Assembly (NCBI GenBank): GCA_024811115.1
Contig: JAKOGH010000008.1
Span: forward strand, 1-64,000
Direction: 5' to 3'
Origin: Terana coerulea
Taxonomy: Eukaryota; Basidiomycota; Agaricomycetes; Polyporales; Phanerochaetaceae
Length of the DNA: 64,000 bases
Shown piece after piece: positions 6,285 through 11,700 of this stretch. Both the position numbers and the translations under genes were made by a program. Below the pieces are notes generated by a model. That model had not been told where the DNA came from. It did no database searches and saw nothing but the letters and a program-made list of their open reading frames with translations. The first letter of the stretch is position 1; every line of letters begins with the position of its first letter.

Positions 6285-8476
6285 ATGTCCACAGACGACG
6301 AAGGTCCTTTACTCAACGATGAAGCTCCGGTGATTGTCGATTGTGATGTCCTCGAGGCGGCCAAAGAGAACATCCAGCCACTTGCCTCCGGCAGGCGGGT
6401 CACTGCCCTTTCCGCCATCCTCTCTACCCCGCACGCTCAGCGCGAAAGTCGTCTCGCTGCCACGAGAAACAGACACAAGATGAATGTACAACTTGCGCTG
6501 GAGAACTCTTTGGATGACGATGATGACGAGGCGGAGGACGCCGACCCACTCGAAGCTTATTGTCGTTACGTCTACTGGGTAGTGGAGAACTATCCTCAAG
6601 GCCACAGCGCGGAAAGTGGCCTGTTGGAGCTACTTGAGGAAGCTACTCGGGTGCTAAAGGACCATCAGGGCGGCAAGTGGCGCGAAGACATACGATACTT
6701 GAAGTTATGGGTTCTCTACGCGAGTTATGTTGAGAAGCCAGCCGTGATATTCAAGTTCTGTGTGGTCAATGAAATTGGGACTTCGCATGCACTTCTATAC
6801 GAGGAATTTGCGATTGCGCTAGAAAGGGCTGGCAGGTGCGTCTCTTGCTCCGTACTCTTTGGCAGGCCACTGAGCTTGGCATCTAGGAAAACGCACGCCG
6901 ACGAAGCATACCAGCTTGGTATCGCGCGGAAAGCGGCACCGCTTGAACGACTAGAGTCGAAATTCAGGGAATTTCAGAAACGCATGATGGCGTTCCCGAA
7001 TCTCCCATCCTCAGCCGAATCATCTTCTACTCCTGCTACGGATTCGCCAATACCCGCATCATCCGCAACACAAATTGCACCTCGCCGTAAGGCCCTAGGT
7101 GAGACGAAGAAGCCTGTCTCATCGGACACTGCCGCGAGAGCAACTCGCGCATCGTCTCGCGCCACTTCTTCGTCTGTTAATTCTCCAGCGACAGCCTCAG
7201 CCCCTACGCCACCCACTCGATCGTCCAACAACAATGCTCGTATACCGGTCTTTGTGGACCCATCCCTAACCGACCCAGTCGCTGTATCCGCACACCTCGA
7301 AGAGGAAGCGCCTTCCGCTTGGCCCGAACTTGGAACACGCAAGTCGCGTATAAAGGAAAACGTGAAGGAGGCAACGAAGGCTGCTGGAACCACTCTGCGT
7401 CAAGCAGGAAAATCCAGGCGTGTCGCTTCAGGAACCACACCGAAGATCCCTGTGTACGTAGATCCTGTCCCGGAAGACGTATCAGGCGCAGAGAATGTCG
7501 CGTCCCCGGCGGCAGAAGACGAAGATCGAGAGCGATGCCGCCGCCACCCGTGCCGGCGAAGGCGAAGGTCGGAAAGGTTACCATTTTCCGTTACGACGAG
7601 GCTGGTCCTTCCGTCACGCCGGCCCCTGCGGCAAAGAAAGCGAACAAGAGCTCTATTCCAGTGTTCCGGGACGAGCCTGCGGTGGATAATGAGAACGTAG
7701 CTGCTCAGTCAGACCCACCGAGGAGTAATGGGGTGGTCAAGACGAAGAAAGCTATTTCTGTATTCCGAGACGAGCCTGCCTCTCAGCCTACAAAGGCGAG
7801 CTCGAGCAAGGCGAAGGGCAAGATATCTGTTTTCAAAGATGAAGATCCCGCACCGCCGTCTGTCGCCGGACAAGAAAATGGAGAGCAAGCCAGTAGTCTT
7901 CCGAGATGGCGAAACATCCGCGCCCAGCGGTCCCAGCAAGCCGAGGAGCAAGATCGCTGTTTTCCATGACGAAGAGCCTGCGGCTGCACCCAGCAAGTCG
8001 AAGGGCAAGATTGCCGTCTTCTGCAACGACGAGCCCCAGCAAGCCGCCGCTCCGGCCAAGGCGAAGGGCAAAATCTCCGTGTTCCAAGATGTGCCTGCAC
8101 CGAGCGCGACAACTACGTCCAGCAAGGCCAAATCCAAGATCGCCATTTTCCGGGATGAAGAACCAGAGGCAGCAGCTACGCCATCACCTGCATTTACCCC
8201 ATATGTTGACGAAGATGTGAGCGTTTTCTTACATACCCGTAGATCATAGCGCGATGCTGACAATTGTACTTACAGCAGCCGCCCGCCTCACCCACCAAGC
8301 CTTCTGCCCCAGGACTGCTTCGAACGAAGAGCCACGGCGCCTCTGGCGTTGGGTTAGGCATTGCTGGTGTCGTCACTGGAGGCAGCGGTGAGAAGATGAG
8401 CTCTGAAGCTGAAGCGTTGAGAAGGGATCCGTTGAAAAACTACGCGGAAGACGAGAGGGTAGTAGACCTTGACTAA
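6285..8476 (+). CDS. MAD3: MAD3/BubR1-like spindle-checkpoint protein
   Basis: Component of the mitotic checkpoint complex that inhibits Cdc20-APC/C. The N-terminus has a KEN box (AAKENIQ, residues 27-29), then the Mad3/BUB1 TPR region (YCRYVYWVVENYP to EEFAIALERAGR, ADEAYQLGI, FREFQKRMM). A second KEN (RIKENVKE, near base 7353) lies at about residue 340. There is no kinase domain, so it is Mad3-type rather than Bub1. The C-terminal half is a string of K-I-x-V-F-x-D-E repeats ending in FTPYVDE (bases 8193-8213). Introns: 6836-6886 (51 bp, in frame and open) and 8217-8275 (59 bp). The frame also changes near 7454-7561, where an 83-bp intron 7479-7561 or a 62-bp intron 7454-7515 would fit, and at the AAAA run 7875-7878, best explained by one extra base. 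Protein about 670-695 residues. Identity is firm; exact repeat-region exons are not. Confidence 0.9.
7230..8213 (+). repeat. Array of ABBA-like peptide repeats inside MAD3
   Basis: About eleven units of the form [K/R]-I-[P/S/A]-V-F-x-D-E followed by a Pro/Ser/Lys-rich spacer: near 7234 (RIPVFVDP), 7442 (KIPVYVDP), 7576 (KVTIFRYDE), 7652 (SIPVFRDE), 7751 (AISVFRDE), 7819 (KISVFKDE), 7887 (KPVVFRDG), 7950 (KIAVFHDE), 8007 (KIAVFCND), 8070 (KISVFQD) and 8139 (KIAIFRDE), then FTPYVDE at 8193. Units lie in two frames because of the frame changes described for the gene. Confidence 0.85.
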
Positions 8477-8766: not shown

Positions 8767-11700
8767 TCATTGGGTGGCGGTGGCGGGCCTCCATATCCCC
8801 GGGCGGCGGGGGCCCCCAGGACCACCAGGGAAAGGCGGCGGCGGACCTCCTCCATAAGGCTGCGCACCCGGGAACCCAGGGCTAGGTCCACCGGGAAAGC
8901 CGGGCTGTCCGCCAGGAGGACCAGGAGGCGGCGGCCCACCGTATGAGCTGCCTCCGCCATATCCTTGGTACCCACCGCCGTAATTCGGCTCAGGCTGCGG
9001 CGGCCCGCCGTACGAAGGGGTGTAGCTGGACTGGCGGTGTGGTTCGGGAGGACCGCCGCCGCCGGGGAAACCTGCCTGCGAGTACGACGACTGGCTGGGG
9101 CTGCCTGGGAAATTGGGTGCGTTCGAACTGCCGGGGTACGTCGACTGACCTGGGCCGCCCGGGAATGACGGTGAGGGGCCCGGGGAGGGTCTGCGATCAT
9201 CTTCCCCCAGTTCGCGCCTTCCGCCTCCTCCACCAAATTGGTTGAAAAAGGCCTGTGCTTCACCAACTTTCCCCATCATGCCGCCCATACCACCTCCTGG
9301 CGCACCCTGCCCTCCGTGCCCTCCGTGATGGTGCCCATGTCCATGCTGACCACCGCCCGCCAAGAGGCTGGCAGGACTGTATCCAGCGCCGGCTCCTCCA
9401 GCCATGTTCGACACATTGCTGATAAAACTCCCACCTCCCTGGTGGCCGCCTTGGTTCCCGCCTTGTCCGCCCGAGCCTCCGAGATGGCTGACGAAGTTTG
9501 CCGCAGACCCTACGACAGGGATACCGCTCACGTAGTTCTGGACGTTTTGCTGGGCTTGGAGGCCATAGCCCGAGGCAGCTGTTCCATGAGCAGCCGAGGC
9601 AGGACCGTCGCCCGCGAGACGAATGTTCTGGTGGTTGCGCACGGCCTCCTTACTGAGGCGGCGCAGAACTTCTTGCTGCTTGTTGCCGAGCTCCTGGACC
9701 CATGTTTGCATGTACTTCATCATTTTGCGCTGAATGTCTGAGTTGGAGTCGTGGAAGTCTGGGTGGAATCTGAGGCTTGACTGTGAGCACAGCTTGCATA
9801 TGTAGATGTGCAAGAACGTACAGGCTGGACAGGATGTCCTCGGTCACTTGATGGACGTTAATCGAATGGTCATCCCACGCCTTCACAACCAAGTTGACCG
9901 TATGTGTCTATTTTAGGTATCAGATGAATCCAAGAGTGTTAAAAGCGAAAGTCGCGAGGCATACCAAGACAATCTTGCCGAGGTTTCCAGCGGGCTCGTT
10001 CAAAATGAGATTCTAACGGATATTAGCCGGCACATGGCATATAGCAGTGAGCGAAACGCACGAAGTGGTCTTTACTGAGGAACGAATGCGTCGGATCGGA
10101 CGCTCTCGGGTCGTTGAAAACCTCGTACTGATCTTGCTTGTTGATTACCTCCCCAGAAGCGACTTGGAGCTGGCTTGTAGCAGTTTTCATCAGGGGCTTC
10201 AGGAATGGCTACGTAATGTAATCTATATCAGCGAGAGAAAGCGCGAAACTTCGTAGAAGCTTACCTCCAATGTCGTGAAGACAAAGACAGAGACCGAGTC
10301 CATAAGCTTCTCGACCAGTGAACTGAGACCAGGAATCCGTTCTGAAACCCTTTCGGTGAGCGAACCACGACATTAACTCTTCGACATGCAAGCATACCGA
10401 TGGTCTTCTCAATCTTCTTCACAACTACAACAGACGTTAATTGGAGGTTGTCCGAAAGTGCCAGACATTTTAGACTTACCAGAATCGCGGAAAGTCAGGA
10501 CCTGCCACAGCACCGCGTGCAGCTCTTGGGGACTCATTTGCTCCGGGGTCTTGCCTCCTTGCGTCGGCCCCGCCCTGATACGCTCGATGCTATCCATTTC
10601 GCGTGCCATCTCGCCTTGATCACCAGTTGGCAATTTGAAGAGAAGGTCGCGGAGCGTATCCGATGCAGATGTGCCACCCCGAGAGGTAGGACCAGCTTTG
10701 TCTCGCGCCCTCTCTAGCTCTCGGTTAAGATCACTGACAGATGCTTGGCTCTGTATGCAGCGTAAGTGCCAAGTTCAAGTACGTGTGATGCGCTACGCAC
10801 GATATGGTCCGTAGCCTCTTTTGATACGCATATAGTCAGCCAACAATTTTGTCAATAATATAGGTGACTTACCTCCCAGTAAGCTGTGGATGAAATCCTG
10901 GGACCCAAATGTACCTATAATGCATGTGTGAATATTCACACTACAGAGCGATGCAGATAATTACCCGTCACGAGCGGAGCGACGTATTTCCTGTTAGGAG
11001 CTTGGATGCGTACTTGGTCGCCAACGTGCATGAAGATATCTTGGTGGCCAAGGCTCACGAGTGCAAGCTCACAGAAATTGGAATGTGCGGCGAAGTCTTC
11101 TAGAGTGTGGAGCTATAGCGGGAGTGCGTGAAGGACTGCAGGTTATGAAGGCCGAACTGAGTACTTACTGACGTACCGAGAAGCCGGTAGGCTTCATACT
11201 CGTCTTGTTTCTGGCCTGACTGGCGATGTTGTCGGCCTAATTGAATGCAGCGCTCCAGAGTTCGGCGAACAAGAGCCTTAGAGGTATCCCAAGATCCATT
11301 TTCTAGAAATACGTCATTTGCGAAGTATTTCCATCAATCGTCGTCGCGCTTACCATTGGCAATATAGTTCTTCATTCCGCTACGAGGGTCAATTTCGAGC
11401 TCGCGAGGCTGAAATTGTGGTCAGCGAATTTTTCGGTCATACACAAAAAGCCACTCACATCCACCGGTCCACGTAGTCTGCGGTCGTATTTACGAGCATC
11501 ATCTGGATATCCTTTGGGATTATCGATGTGCTCCGTCTAGTAATTAGTGCGTGAGAAATGCCACTTCTGCATCTAAGCGAGAAGCTTGCCAACCGGAAGA
11601 TAGGTACCGAGACGTTCCTCAGTTACCTCGAATTCGTGTGTGGCGTAACCGTTAGCCTAGCAGCTGCGTTAGTATGTGCTGTACAGTGGATTGGGGATAC

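Follow-up and report, generated by a model that had tools for sequence, protein, structure and literature searches.

The Mad3 protein of Terana coerulea appears to carry nine ABBA-like units and a terminal ABBA-like motif beyond the usual ABBA1-KEN2-ABBA2 cassette, and this array probably serves as a multivalent Cdc20-docking tail that would raise the avidity or valency of checkpoint inhibition. The DNA analysed, referred to here as the window, comprised the first 64,000 nucleotides of contig JAKOGH010000008.1 (assembly GCA_024811115.1). For the array we observed the motifs themselves, the cassette order, conservation in relatives, constraint at the protein level, and recurrent change of copy number.

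The MAD3 gene and all of its features described below lie on the forward (+) strand. Exon 1 (6285..6835), delimited by its translation and a GT-AG boundary, opens with the start ATG and contains the KEN1 box (6363-6371). Profile matching placed Mad3/BUB1 homology region 1 (TPR, PF08311) at 6495..6851, with a few bases spilling into the inferred intron 1 (6836..6886, 51 nt, GTGCGT..CTAG). The residues that intron 1 would encode were absent in the MAD3 relatives displayed. Exon 2 (6887..8216) holds the cassette, the array, the terminal motif, and two frame changes. It is followed by the inferred intron 2 (8217..8275, 59 nt, GTGAGC..ACAG), placed, like intron 1, from the sequence, and by exon 3 (8276..8476), which ends with a stop at 8474-8476. 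PF08311 matched MAD3 with an E of 4.8e-31 and 112 bits, and a second scan, using the N-terminal piece, gave 1.1e-31. When the N-terminal part was searched against the PDB with phmmer, S. pombe Mad3 (4aez_C) was the top match (E 1.3e-25).

The gene combines the features of a MAD-type protein, namely the PF08311 TPR, both KEN1 and KEN2, and the ABBA1-KEN2-ABBA2 cassette. Vertebrate BubR1 retains a C-terminal kinase domain, unlike the Mad3 form. The MAD3 model ends at 8476 in a short tail without a kinase domain, and PF08311 was the only domain in the N-terminal piece scanned. Genome-wide, PF08311 gave two matches, MAD3 and a BUB1 gene on contig C838, where the kinase-bearing paralogue sits. GLEBS occurs in only some MADs, and MAD status does not require it. 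The N-terminal piece of MAD3 that was scanned gave no match to the GLEBS/Bub3-binding region, which we take to be PF08171. GLEBS was annotated in 0/120 MAD relatives (the best 120 of 242 matches, with a partial Pfam list for P0072) versus 68/120 BUB relatives, as counted by hand. The C-terminal tail in exon 3, SEAEALRRDPLKNY at 8402-8443, follows the pattern SEAEALR[KR]DPLKNY, a relaxed form of which was present in 115 of the 120 proteins scanned (window plus 119 of the best 120 of 242). This tail could be the 'MadaM' motif named in the accessible text of Tromer et al. BUB1 of the same genome has a tail-like AEAQALRKNPLRHY directly after its TPR. The open frame adjoining MAD3 (8770-9843, -) has a long tail rich in Gly and Pro and matches Het-C (heterokaryon incompatibility, PF07217, E 4.4e-9) at the C-terminal end of that protein.

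Twelve ABBA-like units were found in MAD3 between 7242 and 8213, two in the cassette, nine in the array, and one at the end. ABBA1 (IPVFVDP, 7242..7262) lies upstream and ABBA2 (IPVYVDP, 7446..7466) downstream of the KEN2 box (7353..7361, within RIKENVKEATK). The first array unit, a degenerate VTIFRYD (7577..7597), escaped the main regex and was added by eye. The motif scan gave the second to ninth units, IPVFRDE (7655..7675), ISVFRDE (7754..7774), ISVFKDE (7823..7843), the degenerate PVVFRDG (7890..7910), IAVFHDE (7953..7973), the degenerate IAVFCND (8010..8030), ISVFQDV (8073..8093), and IAIFRDE (8139..8159), respectively, as well as the terminal Phe-type motif FTPYVDE (8193..8213). A broad motif pattern produced 13 matches, of which VSAHLEE at 7284 was discarded as a poor fit. 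The extra units are spaced about 18-33 residues apart. The relaxed pattern [FILMV]x[ILVP][FHY]x[DE] fitted 9/12 units, leaving 3/12 degenerate, while the strict metazoan consensus Fx[ILV][FHY]x[DE] fitted 0/12. Position 6 was D in ten units, N in one, and Y in one. After KEN2, the pieced window protein gave 10 regex matches versus a shuffle mean of 0.19 and a maximum of 2 (100 shuffles). Across the window and 119 relatives (of the best 120 of 242), 468 matches were obtained versus 10.6 expected.

The sequence-only reading had described a tandem array of about eleven motifs plus a canonical one at 7230..8213. The motifs are where it placed them, far above chance. The array proper shrinks to nine units since the two on either side of KEN2, at 7242 and 7446, belong to the cassette as ABBA1 and ABBA2, and three of the nine are degenerate. 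Its description of FTPYVDE as a perfect match does not hold, because Pro at position 3 breaks the consensus it quoted, though Pro is common at that position. The units are tandem at the level of the protein; a repeat finder (minimum score 30) reported no DNA-level tandem repeat inside 7230-8213.

The array spans more than one open frame, which that reading had not noted. Two frame changes split it, from frame 0 to frame 2 at 7500..7540 and from frame 2 back to frame 0 at 7845..7890, the latter located by open-frame comparison. The first falls between an acidic tract and MPPPP, a succession common to several relatives. Read literally, frame 0 of MAD3 stops at 7698-7700. Introns were considered as the cause by searching for GT-AG stretches of at least 25 nt within 7455-7545 and 7835-7895, and were rejected, as the right-phase stretches measured only 29 nt at the first site and 28 nt at the second. 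The assembly contains no second MAD3 copy to settle the frame. Two further pairs of gene copies, each of an essential gene, were compared. The copies of a CCT chaperonin gene (C534 vs C204) differed by 6 single-base indels and 17 mismatches over 2,099 aligned bases. The copies of Cdh1 (C50 vs C497) differed by 1 coding single-base indel, more gaps toward the 3' end, and 67 mismatches over 2,598. In both pairs, the frame is broken in one copy at a place where the other copy stays open. We took these pairs as haplotype copies and their indels mostly as assembly errors; the single-base indels therefore call for distrust of frame breaks elsewhere in the assembly. The frame changes in MAD3 are likewise most likely assembly errors, a claim that rests on CCT and Cdh1 and not on MAD3, and because of this the whole array is probably translated. 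The contig pairs C344/C2 and C181/C673, like C534/C204 and C50/C497, look like haplotype duplicates.

Substitutions among the units were used to examine selection, with 8 units of the window compared (7577 left out). The four core codons gave a pS of 0.90 and a pN of 0.11, a ratio of 0.12. Flanking codons gave ratios of 1.04 upstream, where pS was only 0.41, and 0.74 downstream. For all seven motif codons, the ratio was 0.29 in frame versus 1.17 and 1.14 when the DNA was read in the two remaining frames. Leave-one-out core ratios ranged from 0.07 to 0.14, so no single unit lies behind the signal. Selecting units by the motif itself depresses core pN, while that choice does not account for the high pS. 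The units look kept as protein because synonymous change is near saturation and core pN is low. By group, pN/pS was 0.10 among the 3 units between the frame changes, 0.28 between groups, and 0.37 among the 5 units after them. The units thus appear to be old and maintained as protein, both between and after the frame changes.

These ratios bear on whether the allele is truncated by genuine frame changes, in which case Mad3 would end after ABBA2 and some out-of-frame residues, retaining KEN1, the TPR, and the cassette but losing the array, the terminal motif, and the C-terminal tail. Such a truncation would agree with the literal stop at 7698-7700 and with the absence of a second MAD3 copy from the assembly. 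It accords poorly with constraint in the units' own frames between and after the changes (0.10, 0.28, and 0.37), with the second change restoring the frame, and with the like single-base indels that separate the CCT and Cdh1 copies. The predicted proteins of the relatives displayed also continue across both sites, though a predicted model may mask such a change. We regard truncation as very unlikely.

Relatives were the best 120 of 242 matches to the pieced MAD3 protein, the named ones being Agaricomycetes, as we assume from taxonomy. P0077, in which KEN2 was not found, was excluded, giving 119. A strict anchor pattern failed in 31/121 proteins, and the counts use looser anchors; a few of the internal matches are open to doubt, such as those in the fusion protein P0072. 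Within the window and these 119 of the best 120 of 242, ABBA1 (a match at most 60 residues before KEN2) was present in 119/120 proteins, ABBA2 (a match 22-45 residues after KEN2) in 115/120, and at least one copy of an F-x-P-[FYH] motif in 118/120. In the rows displayed, ABBA1 lies about -30 to -37 and ABBA2 about +28 to +34 from KEN2. The usual plan in the 119 relatives is one internal ABBA (74/119) and four ABBA motifs altogether. Internal units numbered 0 in 7 relatives by regex, 1 in 74, 2 in 8, 3 in 12, 4 in 7, and 5-9 in 11 (n = 119, from the best 120 of 242). Most relatives thus have one internal unit or none, and a working Mad3 therefore does not, as a rule, depend on the array. The window Mad3 has 8 internal units by regex and 9 with the degenerate unit at 7577, and Irpex (Irpex rosettiformis), Cerrena, Cytidiella, and Trametopsis have 9, 8, 6, and 5, respectively. 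Among the 31 proteins with at least 5 matches after KEN2, units lay a median of 26 residues apart (n = 139, interquartile range 21-30). Lack of conservation in related species had been named as evidence that would count against the array; in the 119 relatives (of the best 120 of 242) arrays recur, and the array survives this comparison. It is among the longest examples found here, in a protein whose unit number goes up and down from one species to the next.

A quick maximum-likelihood tree of the N-terminal part was built from 62 rows, the window and 61 of the 119 relatives, hand-picked and rich in long arrays. The window Mad3 grouped with Cytidiella, Trametopsis, Irpex, and one further protein (SH-aLRT 96). 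At least 5 units also occur in Cerrena and Panus, Abortiporus, Wolfiporia, Coniophora, Heliocybe, and Phlebia with its nearest row, and several such lineages adjoin relatives with 1 or 2 units. Having five or more units required at least 9 changes on this tree, and a three-state coding required 21; both figures are illustrative and come without a shuffle control. The spelling of the units varies between some of the lineages, with IxVFRDE in polypores, xVPFRDP in Coniophora, and xVYVDP in Heliocybe. Given these differences in spelling and the scattered expansions, the pattern reads as recurrent expansion of each lineage's own unit rather than inheritance of one old array. Unit identity within proteins was 0.569 versus a shuffle mean of 0.494 and a maximum of 0.542 (2000 shuffles), a comparison confounded by species relatedness; this homogeneity fits lineage-wise duplication and is given little weight.

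Variation of this kind could also arise if the extra units were neutral, drifting by tandem duplication and loss in a disordered tail, binding Cdc20 weakly, and having no effect on the checkpoint. The range of copy number (0-9 in the 119 relatives of the best 120 of 242), the scatter of expansions on the tree, and the 3/9 window units that look decayed would all suit neutral drift. It is harder to square with a core pN this low beside synonymous change close to saturation, since neutral units so old should have decayed, and we consider it unlikely.

The counting regex fixes the core letters, and units were recounted with one position free at a time in the window and 119 relatives (of the best 120 of 242). 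With position 4 free, F or Y occupied 385/393 matches, L 6, S 1, and P 1, and V or I none (5.6 matches in shuffles). Position 6 was D in 262/267, N in 2, and E, G, and Y in 1 each (1.25 matches in shuffles). Position 3 was P, V, or I in 385/387, of which 188 were Pro (0.9 matches in shuffles). Position 1 was I in 185, F in 151, and L, M, or V in 49 of 386 (shuffled tails gave 0.9 to 5.6 across positions). Instances of Pro at position 3 include ABBA2 and all 6 internal units in Coniophora. The ABBA core at positions 3, 4, and 6 (hydrophobic or Pro, aromatic, and acidic, respectively) was present in 9/12 window units.

SUMO-interacting motifs want V, I, or L at the fourth core position, the B56 LxxIxE motif wants E at position 6, and KARD links to PP2A-B56. 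Docking arrays of either sort, or of another short motif, would be an alternative to Cdc20 docking, and the units' I-x-V-[hydrophobic]-x-acidic pattern bears a superficial likeness to SUMO-interacting motifs. KARD is present in MadBub proteins, according to the accessible text of PMC5204127. The recount runs against both arrays. F or Y at position 4 (385/393, with V or I in 0 and L in 6) and Pro at position 3 (188/387) suit ABBA and not a SUMO-interacting strand, and Asp dominates position 6 (262/267, Glu 1) where B56 docking calls for Glu. We judge another short motif highly improbable.

For the ABBA assignment, the accessible parts of the literature agree with the positions found here. Positions 3, 4, and 6 are those mutated as a control in PMC5179498, which also describes the ABBA motif as more degenerate than the strict metazoan consensus, and Pro is often present at position 3 (Tromer et al. 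2016, PMC5204127). The ABBA pocket lies between WD40 blades 2 and 3 of Cdc20, and two human BubR1 ABBA motifs off consensus, one of them without Phe, still bind Cdc20, more weakly (accessible text of PMC5179498). In the Cdc20 of this genome, human R262 and I280 are kept and position 279 carries His, which S. pombe Slp1 also has, giving 2/3 tested pocket positions identical to human; Y179 in the accessible text of PMC5179498 was taken as Y279, since the aligned human residue 179 is Pro. The likeness to Cdc20-binding ABBA motifs put forward by the sequence-only reading was thus borne out. Identification of the units as putative ABBA motifs is well supported because the core is conserved in relatives, the cassette supplies the context, the units are constrained as protein, and two of the three tested positions of the Cdc20 pocket are kept.

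The BUB1 paralogue (L003, G000:C838:8500-14500) has a kinase-like C-terminal part, judged by open frames. Like Mad3, it has several ABBA-like motifs, here a tandem FRPLADEN / FRPFVDEN / FKPFVDEN. FQVFVDSE and FAPFVEDAE are further motifs in this protein. BUB and MAD units differ at position 1, which was Phe in 425/586 regex matches from 120 BUB relatives versus 25% of 232 internal MAD units (from the best 120 of 242 MAD3 matches); shuffled BUB relatives gave about 15 Phe and 106 other matches. In the nearest BUB relatives, from Phlebiopsis and Phanerochaete, some units read Ile/Val/Leu/Met-xVFRDE instead. The closest BUB1 relatives, Phlebiopsis gigantea and Phanerochaete sordida, point to Phanerochaetaceae, yet they are not named among the best 120 of 242 MAD3 matches; our guess is mis-annotation or a length out of range.

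In the proposed mechanism, the fixed parts of Mad3 (KEN1, the TPR, and ABBA1-KEN2-ABBA2) would form the mitotic checkpoint complex as usual, and the extra units would offer many interchangeable low-affinity docking sites for Cdc20. These sites would increase how much Cdc20 is present locally and how often it rebinds, and more Cdc20 may be held per Mad3. We infer the disorder of the tail, its binding, its avidity, and its effect on checkpoint strength, as well as the multivalent platform that the sequence-only reading suggested. The sequence is compatible both with avidity and with extra bound Cdc20 molecules. The three degenerate units of the nine in the array count against this mechanism.

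The concept of a Mad3 array is already in print, and the window presents an unusually long example of the reported basidiomycete arrays. The accessible text of Tromer et al. 2016 (PMC5204127) reports ABBA 'repeat arrays' in MAD of basidiomycetes, Physcomitrella patens, and stramenopiles, and shares with the window the protein family, the motif class, the basidiomycete array context, and Pro at position 3. It states that the ABBA1-KEN2-ABBA2 cassette alone occurs in virtually all species. The order in the window (7242, 7353, and 7446) is identical to that of the BubR1/Mad3 cassette in the accessible text of PMC5204127 and PMC5179498, and the window Mad3 adds nine further units and a terminal one. 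A literature search on ABBA or Cdc20 in basidiomycetes, or Mad3 in Agaricomycetes, covering few subscription journals, found only Tromer et al. 2016. The main text of a Bub1-TPR/Mad3 paper (PMC6657678) does not mention ABBA. Unit counts, spread on the tree, and unit-level selection were worked out here. The accessible text of Tromer et al. 2016 (PMC5204127) gives no unit counts, per-species variation in Agaricomycetes, or selection test, and its figures or supplement may hold counts.

A bolder and rather unlikely extension is that the array is an evolvable dial of valency, in which Mad3 would have independently multiplied its internal ABBA motif in several Agaricomycete lineages and become a multi-Cdc20 scaffold that sets checkpoint strength. 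The lineages concerned would be the phlebioid fungi including Terana coerulea, Cerrena and its kin, Wolfiporia, Coniophora, and Heliocybe, some with their own spelling. Mad3 would thereby have changed from an inhibitor that holds two Cdc20 molecules, and such a dial perhaps serves the large cytoplasm shared in multinucleate hyphae. A literature search for a link between Phanerochaete and multinucleate cells found nothing useful. A likeness exists with the MELT repeat arrays of the checkpoint scaffold KNL1, whose number of short docking motifs reportedly evolves rapidly, as Tromer and colleagues are said to have described in 2015. The likeness lies in the fast-changing motif number; protein, motif, and partner differ, the partner of MELT being Bub3 and not Cdc20. 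If Cdc20 binding by the Mad3 array scales with array length, related fungi would offer a ready-made graded set of Mad3 proteins that carry 0 to 9 internal docking sites, in which the dependence of checkpoint strength on docking valency could be tested directly. Mad3 would then be a second checkpoint protein, beside KNL1, with a fast-changing number of docking motifs.
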